The position numbers and the translations under genes were made by a program. This document shows positions 4,508-16,201 of a stretch of DNA of 64,000 nt, in pieces (positions within the stretch are counted from its first letter, which is position 1; each line of letters opens with the position of its first letter). Source of the DNA: Halothiobacillus sp. GTDB lineage: Bacteria > Pseudomonadota > Gammaproteobacteria > Halothiobacillales > Halothiobacillaceae. A model generated the notes under the pieces. The model was not told the DNA's origin. It ran no database searches and was given only the letters and a program-made list of their open reading frames with translations. The stretch lies in assembly GCA_020061705.1 (NCBI GenBank), contig JAGUXT010000038.1, positions 62,001 to 126,000 of the forward strand, written 5' to 3'.

Positions 4508-5566
4508 TCAAGCCGCCCGCCGCGCACGCACCGCCTGGGCCAGCATATGCACAATGGCCGCACCATCATCCCAGCCTACACAAGCATCGGTAATGCTTTG
4601 GCCATAGGTCAAGCCTTGCACGTCCTGTACATCTTGACGCCCACCCACAATGTGGCTCTCGACCATTGCACCGATAATCGCCTTGTTGCCTGCCGCCACT
4701 TGCGCGGCGACATCCTTGGCGACTTCAACTTGAAGCATGTGCTGCTTGCGGCTGTTGGCATGGGAAAAGTCGATCATGATGCGTGCAGGTAGCTTGGCTT
4801 TTTCCAGAGCCGCCGCCGCTGCAGCAACATGTGCCGCATCGAAGTTCGGCTCGTGCCCGCCACGCAGAATAATGTGGCAGTCTTCGTTGCCGCGCGTGGA
4901 AAAAATCGCCGAATGACCTTCCTTGGTGACCGACAAGAAGTGATGCGGACGCTCGGCGGCACGGATGGCATCAATGGCCACCTGCAAACCGCCGTCGGTG
5001 CCGTTTTTGAAGCCCACCGGGCAGGAAAGCCCGGAAGCCAGCTCGCGATGCACCTGGCTTTCTGTCGTGCGTGCGCCAATCGCGCCCCAGCTAATCAAAT
5101 CGGCCACGTACTGCGGGCTAATCAAATCAAGGTACTCAGTCGCCGTAGGCATACCCATATCGGCCAGATCAGCCAACAAATGCCGTGCTAACAGCAAACC
5201 TTCGTTAATGCGGTAGCTACCATCAAGGTGCGGGTCATTAATCAAACCCTTCCAGCCCACAGTGGTACGCGGTTTTTCAAAGTACACGCGCATAACCAGC
5301 AGAATGTCATCCGCAACCTCCTCCGCCAACGTCTTCAAGCGCGCCGCATAATCGCGCGCGGCCTGCACATCGTGAATCGAACACGGCCCCATAACGACGA
5401 GCAAGCGGTCATCTTCACCGCTGAGCACCTTATGAATCGCCTGGCGTGCAGCAAAAACTGTTTCAGCGCCGCGCTCGGTGAGTGGATGCTTACTGCGCAC
5501 GGTGACGGGAGGAACAACTTCCTCAATGCCCACAATGCGTAAATCGTCGGTCAAATGAATGGTCAC
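4508..5566 (-). CDS. aroG: 3-deoxy-7-phosphoheptulonate synthase (class I, AroG/F/H type)
   Basis: DAHP synthase condenses phosphoenolpyruvate with erythrose-4-phosphate, the first step of the shikimate pathway, in the cytoplasm. The 352 residues match E. coli AroG length. Conserved motifs are visible: VVMGPCSIHD (metal-binding Cys), RVYFEKPRTTVGWKG, GARTTESQVHRELASGLS, and IMIDFSHANSRKQ (metal His). The start appears to be GTG at 5566, about 10 bases after a CAGG Shine-Dalgarno; no in-frame ATG gives a better N-terminus. Which aromatic amino acid inhibits this isozyme cannot be read safely, so the symbol indicates the type rather than the isozyme. Confidence 0.93.
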   Translation of the reverse strand: MTIHLTDDLRIVGIEEVVPPVTVRSKHPLTERGAETVFAARQAIHKVLSGEDDRLLVVMGPCSIHDVQAARDYAARLKTLAEEVADDILLVMRVYFEKPRTTVGWKGLINDPHLDGSYRINEGLLLARHLLADLADMGMPTATEYLDLISPQYVADLISWGAIGARTTESQVHRELASGLSCPVGFKNGTDGGLQVAIDAIRAAERPHHFLSVTKEGHSAIFSTRGNEDCHIILRGGHEPNFDAAHVAAAAAALEKAKLPARIMIDFSHANSRKQHMLQVEVAKDVAAQVAAGNKAIIGAMVESHIVGGRQDVQDVQGLTYGQSITDACVGWDDGAAIVHMLAQAVRARRAA

Positions 5567-5743
5567 AATATCAAACCTGCAACATAAAATTGAATTAAGC
5601 CGTGATATTAACAGAGCGCACCGATGATGGCTGCGCTTGGGGGCTGTTTACGAATTTGTAACAGTCACTGACAACTGCGCGGATTTGGATTTCCTCTCCC
5701 CTTTTGATGCTGCTGTGAACTGACCTGTGGAGGCCGGGTAAAA

Positions 5744-6302
5744 GCGCCATGGATGGCGCATTTAGTCTCTCCGCGACAGGATGTCGCGTTGAGACACCCC
5801 TGCTTGCGCAGGTCAGTTCACGGCTTGCCCGCAGGGCGGCATTAGTGGGGTGCATTTCTTCGGTGACATTCTTTGTGCAAGCAAAGAAAGTTACTCGCCC
5901 GTATCAAACATGCTTTGTGCGAAGTCGCACCATGGAGACGGGCGAAACAATGCCACCGGCATTGAACGGTTAGTGGATTATTTCGCCCGTCTTGACGGAA
6001 CCACTCCATAGCAGATTTACGTGGTCACGGGCGAGTAACTTTTCTTGTTGCTGAAGGCATCCGTGCCTTCAAGCCCTTCGGGTGATGCTGCGCATCCCAG
6101 CGCCGCTCCGAGCGGCGCTTGTCGTGCAAGCAAAGTAACCAAAAGAACACGCCCCAAGGGGTAAAAGCAGCGCTTGGAGCGCTGCTGGGTCGCGTAGCGA
6201 CATCCGAAGGACGGAATACATGGATGTATTCCGCCGCCCTGCGGGCAAGCCGTGAACGCAGTGCCTACGGCAAGGCCGTCCCGACGCAACATCCATGTTG
6301 CG
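5744..6302. repeat. dense array of small perfect hairpins in an 880-bp gene-free gap
   Basis: The gap 5567-6448 contains no convincing gene. It holds a run of short perfect inverted repeats: 5744-5759, 5765-5795 (two nested arm pairs), 5799-5812, 5827-5837, 5917-5930, 5937-5991 (11-bp arms) enclosing 5948-5964, 6053-6070, 6084-6096, 6100-6118, 6152-6161, 6168-6184, 6189-6201, 6213-6232 and 6285-6302. Larger inverted pairs also link 5889-5901 with 6028-6040 (13 bp) and 5816-5840 with 6233-6257 (25 bp). Open frames in all directions are by-products of the symmetry and resemble no protein I know. No promoter or transposase is visible. The function is unknown. Confidence 0.8.
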
Positions 6303-6377
6303 ACGGAACAAAACAGGTCAGTTATGGTCTGTTTACCTAGCCTCCGGCACTCCATTCACGGCGACCCCACACGGGGG

Positions 6378-6408
6378 AATAAAAAGCCGCGCAGTCGGCA
6401 GAGACTGC
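6378..6408 (-). terminator. putative rho-independent terminator of nhaD
   Basis: Read on the minus strand, GCAGTC and GACTGC (6403-6408 and 6391-6396) form a 6-bp stem followed by GCGGC and a TTTTTATT tract, 40-70 bases after the nhaD stop. The stem is short, so the call is tentative. Confidence 0.45.
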
Positions 6409-6448
6409 AATAAAACCAGCGCCTTCGGCTCAGACCGTAAACTAGCTC

Positions 6449-7900
6449 TTACATCAGTGAAGCATTAACCACAAGATGCGTGAGAATGCTGGCTACGTAA
6501 CCAAGCGCAATCGCCCAACTCCAGCGCAGATGCGCCATGAAAGTGTACACGCCACGCGCTTGCCCCATTAAAGCCACCCCTGCGGCTGAGCCGACGGAAA
6601 GCAGAGAACCACCCACACCGGCGGTCAGGGTGACCAGCAACCATTGTCCCAGCGACATTTCGGGGTTCATGCTCAATACGGCATACATCACTGGAATATT
6701 GTCCACCACCGCCGAGAGCAACCCAACAAGGATATTCGCCGAAGTCGCACCCAAGCCGTCGTACATCAGGCCGGATAATCCTGCCAGATAACCCAGCGCC
6801 CCCAGACCGCCCACGCCCAAAACCACGCCGTAGAAGAAAAGCAGGGTGTCCCATTCGGCACGCTTCATGGAAATGAAAATATCAAACGGCTTGTCGCGGG
6901 GTTTAAACAGGCGCGGATCAATCCCAGCATCCGGAAAATGTAAATCAGAGCTCTTATCCCCCTCCACGCGGCGGATAAAGTAGCCCTGCACCATTAATAA
7001 GCCCAAGCCCGTCATCATGCCGAGCATAGGTGGCAAATGCAGTTGATTGTGCATTACAACAGCCAGGGCAATGCTGAAGGCAAAAATGCCCATGGCAACA
7101 AATCCACCCGTTTTGACTTTGGGTTGCTCGTGCAAAGGCTCTGGGCGCAGCTTGGGCACCGCCAGCGACAAAATGAAGGCTGGCACCAGCCAGTTAACCA
7201 GGGATGGTAAAAACAAGGCAAAAAACTCATGAAACTGCACCATGCCCTTTTGCCACACCATCAGTGTCGTAATGTCGCCAAACGGACTGAATGCTCCGCC
7301 CGCATTGGCGGCCACCACAATACTAATCGAAGCGGGAACCACGAAACCACGCTGGGCACCAGCCACCGCCATAACCACCGCGCCCATAATCAGCGCCGTC
7401 GTTAGATTGTCTGCCACCGGCGAGATGAAAAAAGCCAGCAGGCCGGTCAGCCAGAAAATGGTGCGCAATGAAAATCCGCGCGAAACCAGCCAAGCGCGCA
7501 GGGCATCAAACAGGCCGCGTTCTTGCAAGGTATTGATGAAGGTCATGGCGGCGAGCAAAAACAGCAGCAGCTCGCCGTATTCAAGGATGACCTCTTTAAT
7601 GAGGTCGCCAGCGGCAGCAGGTTGCCCTGCACCGGCATAGGCTAAAGAAACCAGAATCCAGATCACACCCGCAGCCACCACCATCGGCTTGGATTTGCGC
7701 AGATGAATATTTTCCTCGGCAATCACCAATCCATACGCCAATACAAACACACCAAGCGCCAGCATTCCCCAAAAACTGCCAGTCAGGGACAACGTCGCTG
7801 TCACGCTTGACGCTTCGCTCGCAAGGGCAGGCACCATGACCATGCCGCAAAGCAGCGTCATCCATCCGCTGATAATCAATCCGAATTTGAATTTGCACAT
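6449..7900 (-). CDS. nhaD: NhaD-type Na+/H+ antiporter
   Basis: An inner-membrane antiporter of the NhaD/ion-transporter superfamily exporting Na+ in exchange for H+. The 483 residues begin with a signal-like hydrophobic segment (about 8-27), then some dozen membrane segments. Typical stretches are FISPVADNLTTALIMGAVVMAV, NAGGAFSPFGDITTLMVWQKG and, in the second half, LLSAVVDNIPVMYAVLSM: two inverted copies of the SP/DN-type ion-binding motif. It is transcribed divergently from nhaA across 228 bases, and the Shine-Dalgarno is weak (GAGAG). NhaD is frequent in marine, halophilic and alkaliphilic bacteria. A general arsenite/citrate permease is the alternative, but the motifs favour NhaD. Confidence 0.88.
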   Translation of the reverse strand: MCKFKFGLIISGWMTLLCGMVMVPALASEASSVTATLSLTGSFWGMLALGVFVLAYGLVIAEENIHLRKSKPMVVAAGVIWILVSLAYAGAGQPAAAGDLIKEVILEYGELLLFLLAAMTFINTLQERGLFDALRAWLVSRGFSLRTIFWLTGLLAFFISPVADNLTTALIMGAVVMAVAGAQRGFVVPASISIVVAANAGGAFSPFGDITTLMVWQKGMVQFHEFFALFLPSLVNWLVPAFILSLAVPKLRPEPLHEQPKVKTGGFVAMGIFAFSIALAVVMHNQLHLPPMLGMMTGLGLLMVQGYFIRRVEGDKSSDLHFPDAGIDPRLFKPRDKPFDIFISMKRAEWDTLLFFYGVVLGVGGLGALGYLAGLSGLMYDGLGATSANILVGLLSAVVDNIPVMYAVLSMNPEMSLGQWLLVTLTAGVGGSLLSVGSAAGVALMGQARGVYTFMAHLRWSWAIALGYVASILTHLVVNASLM

Positions 7901-15404: not shown

Positions 15405-15418
15405 GAGGTCATAACCGC

Positions 15419-16201
15419 ATGCAACGCCGCCTTCCCCTGCTTTGGCTCGCTTTCATCGTGCTGGCCCCTGTGCATGTTCAAGCCGACAGCATCGAACTCA
15501 TCACCCTGCAACACCGCATGGCCGAAGACATCATGCCGCTGATTCAGCCTGTGCTCCAGCCCGGCGATGCCATCAGCGGCAGCGGTTCACAGCTTATTCT
15601 GCGCGCCTCGCCCGCCACGCAGGCGCAGGTGCAACGCCTGTTGCAGGAGCTGGATCGCACCCCGCGCAATCTGGTGACCAGCGTGCGCAGCGACGATGAA
15701 ATGCGCGCCGCGCGTGAAGGCGTACAGGGGCGTGTGATCGTGCACCCCGAAGGCGTGAGCGTGAACGGACGCATCGAATCCAGCCGCAGCAGCCTGGACA
15801 ACAACGCCACACAACAGATTCGCGTGCTGGAAGGCAGCCCGGCACGCCTGCGCGTGGGGCGGGAAACCCCGTATGCGCAACCAGTATGGGTTGAAACCCC
15901 CAACGGCATGCAACGCGTCCCCACCACCGCCATCCGCGAAACCGGACGTTGGCTGAATGTCGCGCCAACACTTCAGGGCGAGCAGGTGCTGCTGGATATC
16001 CAGCCGGAATCCGCACAGATCAACCCGCAACACCCACGCAGCACCGATGTGCAAAGCCTGTCCACCCGCGTGCGCGTGCCCCTGGGGCAGTGGGTTCCGC
16101 TAGGCGGCGTGGATAGCCGGGAGCAGCAACAGATCAACGGCAGAACCAACGCACAAAGCCAATCCAATCAAACCTGGGTCAAGGTTGAGTTGGCCGATTA
16201 G
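15419..16201 (+). CDS. exported protein with secretin short-domain (N-domain) features
   Basis: A 260-residue protein with a signal peptide (about 1-22, cleavage after VQA). Residues 25-85 (IELITLQHRMAEDIMPLIQPVL ending in LLQELDRTPRNLV, split here by a loop) resemble the NolW-type short domain of type II/III secretion secretins, and the C-terminal half (LNVAPTLQGEQVLLDI ending WVKVEL) is like a fragment of a secretin core. Full secretins are much longer, so this is a short orphan form, periplasmic or outer-membrane associated. An AGGAGG ribosome site overlaps the stop of the preceding gene, indicating coupling. No type II secretion or pilus genes are nearby. The function is unknown. Confidence 0.6.
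   Translation: MQRRLPLLWLAFIVLAPVHVQADSIELITLQHRMAEDIMPLIQPVLQPGDAISGSGSQLILRASPATQAQVQRLLQELDRTPRNLVTSVRSDDEMRAAREGVQGRVIVHPEGVSVNGRIESSRSSLDNNATQQIRVLEGSPARLRVGRETPYAQPVWVETPNGMQRVPTTAIRETGRWLNVAPTLQGEQVLLDIQPESAQINPQHPRSTDVQSLSTRVRVPLGQWVPLGGVDSREQQQINGRTNAQSQSNQTWVKVELAD

Follow-up and report, generated by a model that had tools for sequence, protein, structure and literature searches.

A composite, dispersed palindromic repeat with loops near the CsrA consensus in an intergenic gap of Halothiobacillus

Why should a single gap between two genes be built almost entirely of hairpins? The question is raised by positions 5744-6302 of a 64,000-nucleotide stretch of Halothiobacillus sp. DNA (the window, i.e., the whole stretch analysed), which an earlier note had described as a gene-free array of at least fifteen perfect hairpins. 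Perfect inverted repeats that do not overlap (loop 2-8) number 15, 10, 9 and 5 for arms of at least 5, 6, 7 and 8 bp respectively, while 500 dinucleotide shuffles of the same region gave means of 3.5 (± 1.7 for the first class), 1.0, 0.28 and 0.08, and the description of a dense array is upheld. None of the 500 shuffles reached the observed counts, the shuffle maximum being 9 for arms of at least 5 bp, and every 559-bp stretch of the window outside the region is far less dense in hairpins. A list of local hairpins omits the larger fold, for example a 25-bp perfect long-range stem joining 5816-5840 to 6233-6257, and the minimum free energy of 5650-6420 is -402.5 compared with -277 ± 9 in 40 shuffles (z = -13.7). 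A DAHP-synthase-like gene (4508-5566, minus strand) and a transporter gene (6449-7900, minus strand), both named from their translations, border the gap, which was rightly called free of genes, as the ORFs within it, such as 5595-5855 and 6017-6355, are read-through of the repeat described below. Annotators should be aware that ORFs called in such gaps may be repeat translations.

The gap is, near certainly, occupied by a single composite copy of a palindromic repeat that is dispersed, modular and non-coding. The 641 bases of 5700-6340 gave 116 BLAST matches in the 2.27-Mb genome of the same organism, about 25 of them long, which together with the copies in relatives lends strong support to the earlier suggestion of a repeat family. 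Of the genus, 4 other genomes were searched and all gave matches; several other members of the family did so too, mostly with weaker ones. One of its modules is TwoAYGGAY (RF01731), an Rfam motif listed as a probable RNA with no function assigned (PMC2864571). Hits to eukaryotic miRNA families of Rfam scored far below gathering and were put down to chance. The own genome has 43 matches to TwoAYGGAY, 41 of which are over the cut-off, while 14 control genomes have none; in the class the motif was found in 24 of 369 genomes, several of them with 6-7 matches among the seven candidates scored per genome. The idea that the array consists of chance hairpins or is an assembly artefact has practically no probability left and is already refuted. 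Many copies do lie at contig ends, as an artefact would have it, but the copy in the window is internal to a 140-kb contig and homologous copies exist in the genomes of other species, two of them single-contig; chance is opposed by the shuffles.

The hairpin array as first delimited was slightly narrow, because the repeat runs from the terminal GCGCGGATTTGGATTT at about 5677 to about 6400. The parts of this copy, read with the help of an alignment of 16 own copies (the window copy and 15 others), are as follows.

5677-6400, no strand: whole composite copy of two inverted units, aligned with 15 other own copies; outer ends degenerate on both sides
5677-5692, plus: left terminal inverted repeat GCGCGGATTTGGATTT, from genome matches at copy ends
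5691-5845, plus: unit A, scoring 45.3 bits as a TwoAYGGAY module (Rfam RF01731; gathering score 43), with covariation in 44 units
5744-5759, plus: GGA hairpin 1, GCGCC-ATGGAT-GGCGC, from the inverted-repeat count and loop tally
5772-5788, plus: GGA hairpin 2, CGCGACA-GGA-TGTCGCG, with the CsrA-consensus-like ACA-GGA-UGU, from the inverted-repeat count and loop tally
5816-5840, plus: 5' arm of the 25-bp perfect long-range stem (partner 6233-6257), from the inverted-repeat list and consensus fold
5863-5894, plus: hairpin of module M, GTGACATTCTTTG-TGCAAG-CAAAGAAAGTTAC, with its sequence conserved in different families
5895-5945, plus: tail stem of unit A, TCGCCCGT...ACGGGCGA, from the consensus fold
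5983-6034, minus: tail stem of unit C, TCGCCCGT...ACGGGCGA, with the tail-to-tail junction near 5946-5982, from the alignment and consensus fold
6034-6047, minus: one arm of the module M hairpin of unit C, separated by insert A from its partner at about 6127-6140, from the alignment and consensus fold
6048-6117, minus: insert A, a three-hairpin repeat type with minus-strand CA-C-GGA-T-G in its distal hairpin, from the alignment
6163-6234, plus: insert B, three hairpins with loops including TTGGA and ACATGGATGT, whole in the window copy only
6233-6257, plus: 3' arm of the 25-bp long-range stem, from the inverted-repeat list
6235-6377, minus: unit C, inverted TwoAYGGAY-type, with hairpin 6285-6302 carrying ACATGGATGT on the minus strand, from the alignment
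6382-6408, minus: right outer end, degenerate terminal inverted repeat AAAGCCGCGC and hairpin GCAGTCGGCAGAGACTGC, from the alignment

From the 16-copy alignment, a standard copy has about 560-600 bp and consists of unit A, a tail-to-tail junction and the inverted unit C. Each unit is polar, with an outer inverted repeat followed by the branched arm of two GGA hairpins (TwoAYGGAY), GCCCGnAGGGC, GGGGTG with the conserved TTTCTTTG...CAAAGAAA hairpin (module M), and a CTCGCCCG...CGGGCGAAA tail. Shorter solo copies have one unit flanked by two ends. The copy forms are solo, composite and alternating array, the last seen as + - + - runs of units in genome G005. In the own genus a pair of units meets tail to tail, in a sister genus (g4) of the same family head to head. 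The terminal GCGCGGATTTGGATTT has 38 genome matches with at most 2 mismatches, nearly all at copy ends, compared with 1 in the control; the outer ends often extend outward to AACGAAGGTTTG...CTTGCGCCAAAGGCG, and many copies carry GCGCGGATTTGGATTT together with an outer AACGAAGG...GCGCC part, so that terminal inverted repeats are present. At copy ends, including 5680-5692 of the window, there are also tandem hexamers GGATTT/GGCTTT in varying number, a possible slippage tract.

The window copy departs from the standard by its two extra three-hairpin inserts, of which 6048-6117 is common to one other copy (L018) and has a partial stand-alone match in L209. The reverse complement of this insert shares its layout with 6163-6234; the stems differ. 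The second hairpin of unit C (about 6308-6333) is mutated here. In unit A the loop ATGGAT of hairpin 1 fits AYGGAY and the ACA-GGA-TGT of hairpin 2 is one base short, while many sister copies have ACATGGATGT as the hairpin 2 loop.

When compared to known systems, the family is comparable to BIMEs with a unit 5-10 times the size of a REP. REP/BIME and REPIN sequences are tagged by GTAG or CGTC, and RAYT is the proposed mobiliser of the GTAG types (PMC3733652, PMC3116915). The repeat resembles them in being palindromic, intergenic and enriched between convergent genes, and in forming dimers and alternating arrays. However, its unit has about 100-300 bp compared with 20-40 bp, our alignments contain no GTAG or CGTC tag at the hairpin feet, and the RAYT-type genes of this genome are not flanked by units. 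It shares with MITEs the non-coding character, the outer inverted repeats and a length of several hundred bp, but neither a target-site duplication nor a parent transposase was found, and it has many internal hairpins with covarying stems. Unlike in CRISPR, the direct repeats here are short, imperfect and in two or three copies, with no identical repeats separated by spacers. The statement that this is neither a classic REP nor a CRISPR design was correct.

The repeat very likely is or was mobile. Five occupied sites of the own genome, the window's included, are empty of the element in the relative G003; one G003 copy has no counterpart at window 15408-15479, and at one shared site the own genome has a solo copy where G003 has a composite. 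Such presence and absence at orthologous sites argues against inheritance of all copies at fixed sites. No target-site duplication was seen at copy flanks or in the comparison of own-genome and G003 sites. Few precise empty sites are available, because the sites of relatives are often filled by other repeats: the G003 counterparts of occupied sites often hold another palindromic repeat, and one of these, TTAGCCACAGAGG...CTCTGTGGCTAA, fills the orthologous G003 gaps at C60:33680-33900, C60:41130-41340 and C41:23320-23610. As for an attachment or recombination target, which had also been proposed, we found no evidence for such a role.

A mobilising gene was sought among the Y1 transposase genes, the inserted IS and a stretch between copies in G009, and was found in none of them. 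The own genome has two near-alike adjacent Y1_Tnp (RAYT-like) genes at C61:22026-22943 (L044), with short AGTCTGACCCCATTGAT repeats between them; a Y1/RAYT transposase was rejected as the mobiliser since the flanks read of both genes contain no units. A transposase-carrying parent was rejected as well, the sole cargo being an IS with an integrase-type transposase in copy L019 (about 150-1420, ends TGTACAGACCGGACACCTAGGTGACA), which is inserted in the module M hairpin loop and was judged a passenger. In G009, the 3.4 kb that separate two broken copies read as ordinary genes and were not accepted as cargo. There were no phage matches to the repeat and none to viral contigs, and a phage or plasmid origin was dismissed on this ground and because plasmid matches are restricted to the module M part.

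We then consider what is conserved. In 44 units from several genera, 85% of the structure cells are paired compared with 70% after shuffling, and there are 307 double changes compared with 110, with slid controls far lower. The consensus fold of 11 whole copies is a single branched structure of 164 pairs. Across genera the stems covary strongly while the loops hold CA-N-GGA-N-G, near the binding consensus of CsrA/RsmA, a global RNA-binding regulator. Every one of the 44 units has CA-N-GGA-N-G in hairpin 1. In hairpin 2 six units carry CGA and the others GGA, mostly as ACA(N)GGA; this loop conservation is open to search bias, because part of the 44-unit set was picked by an Rfam model that expects AYGGAY loops. 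The own copies were recovered by plain BLAST and not by the Rfam model, and units of genome G210 that were located via module M alone likewise show GGA hairpins. The earlier view that symmetry and not sequence is selected thus holds for the stems, kept by compensatory change, and fails for the loops and module M, which are conserved in sequence. In the same way, the arms differ among the hairpins inside a single copy, as had been said, but identical arms recur in other copies.

Covariation and the above-gathering TwoAYGGAY match support the structured part of the earlier structured-RNA suggestion, in that a single strand is folded; RNA and single-stranded DNA both fit. The outer stems of the own copies contain 60 G-U and 8 A-C cells, which favours RNA of the GGA strand, although the excess falls to 18 against 13 when tallied as column-level events. 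Hairpin 1 is almost without G-U in spite of many double changes, which would be the pattern if DNA hairpins, or both strands, were important. The latter observation speaks for a selfish-DNA reading, in which the hairpins are single-stranded or cruciform substrates of a transposase or recombinase, as in REPINs, the GGA loop is the mark of the enzyme, and the enzyme, along with template-switch correction, maintains the symmetry, RNA playing no part. We regard this as a possible but somewhat doubtful explanation. It would account for dispersed copies with outer inverted repeats, for their presence and absence among relatives, for the BIME-like alternating arrays, and for GGA loops on either strand inside one composite. 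It sits poorly with the missing target-site duplication and with two Y1 transposase genes that have no adjoining units, and one transposase would have to serve several unrelated repeat types bearing the same loop.

The copies are mostly downstream of genes or in convergent gaps. Convergent gaps account for 10 of the 19 own copies and for 40 of the 185 gaps of 50 bp or longer used as background (p = 0.009, with genes called by ORF length only). This excess, the nearness to stop codons and the different palindromic repeats that often occur in orthologous gaps lacking this one would all suit an element of mRNA 3' ends, i.e., a terminator or 3' stabiliser between convergent genes whose loop sequence is incidental. 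We consider it improbable. Terminator-like sites are at the shuffled level (2 found, 1.4 expected), the repeat occurs in divergent gaps too (4 of 35), and conserved loops on freely varying stems would be left unexplained. Promoters in the repeat are likewise not above the shuffled level.

We rate CsrA binding as the most economical account of loops that stay invariant on variable stems and recur in unrelated repeats. The SELEX consensus of CsrA is RUACARGGAUGU, in which ACA and GGA are fully conserved and GGA is preferentially placed in a hairpin loop (PMC4347634), and TwoAYGGAY was put forward as a CsrA ligand in 2014 (PMC4333381). The repeat has GGA in the loop in an ACA-N-GGA-UGU-like context, the sequence criterion for CsrA-binding RNA, and a csrA gene is present in the genome. 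From these sequence features, read-through RNA of the repeat probably binds CsrA. In the mechanism we propose, copies would be spread by a mobilising activity and by recombination between units, and transcripts from flanking genes would enter the repeat and fold into the branched array. The array may then present paired CA-N-GGA-N-G loops to the CsrA/RsmA dimer, and we infer with moderate confidence that it is the RNA loop which is conserved as the functional part. Each copy could thus add a CsrA-binding 3' end, and jointly the copies could act as a distributed CsrA sink. The whole account, a BIME-like mobile repeat whose read-through RNA presents CsrA-binding loops, stands in our judgment at about an even chance.

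The account differs from the known CsrA-sequestering type of RNA. As in CsrB/C and RsmX/Y/Z, several hairpins carry GGA loops near the CsrA consensus, but here the copies are dispersed, no promoter of their own was seen, the loops are on both strands of a composite, and there are extra conserved modules without GGA. Since the units are inverted within the composite, only about half of the loops read GGA in any one transcript, which argues against a dedicated sponge, as this would keep its loops on one strand. With respect to TwoAYGGAY, the window unit is above the gathering score and has two GGA-loop hairpins on a common stem, but the motif is here one module of a larger repeat with at least 40 copies per genome, other conserved modules and inverted pairs. 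In the literature searched we found no description of TwoAYGGAY as a multi-copy modular element and nothing relevant on CsrA with dispersed repeats. An orphan motif of Rfam is recast as one building block of a palindromic repeat that is widespread and multi-copy, and a concrete, testable connection of repetitive DNA with the CsrA/Rsm regulon is put forward. If transcribed, the 43 TwoAYGGAY units and the other GGA-loop repeats could amount to an estimated hundred or so CsrA-type hairpins in one genome of this genus.

The second module TTTCTTTGGTnACTTTCTTTG..CAAGCAAAGAAAGTnAC lies 3' of the arm in unchanged orientation in distant families as well, and also occurs on plasmids of Ilyobacter, Comamonas and Caballeronia. 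Module M was seen in Fusobacteriota, on the Ilyobacter polytropus plasmid pILYOP01 (L237) at 701-749 with about 90% identity over 48 nt, and at six places on this plasmid alone. Its near-unchanged sequence there suggests either transfer across phyla or strong sequence constraint.

The loop is also found outside the family. Long hairpins that do not belong to the family were collected from 0.44 Mb of the own genome and about as much of G003; of these 201, 17 carry CA(N)GGA(N)G, and ten control motifs occur 0-11 times each (mean 3.1). Copies of a repeat are not independent of one another, which makes this comparison informal, and the control with the most matches, CA(N)CCA(N)G, also lacks independence, since CATGGATG fits it in reverse complement. 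At least two other types of hairpin repeat in these genomes bear the CA-N-GGA-N-G loop. It is conceivable, though we think it rather unlikely, that several unrelated mobile hairpin repeats share a loop recognised by CsrA, or arrived at it by convergence, and form a genome-wide CsrA-binding network of selfish elements that titrate this regulator or are protected or controlled by it. Many of the 17 hairpins belong to one unrelated five-hairpin repeat. This second dispersed repeat has about 200 nt and about five hairpins, some with CATGGATG loops. In G003 it was seen at C17:45950-46300, C17:73050-73350 and C47:33831-34130, and in the own genome at C24:84000-84300 (L204), C24:30250-30500 (L201) and C13:65900-66150 (L209).
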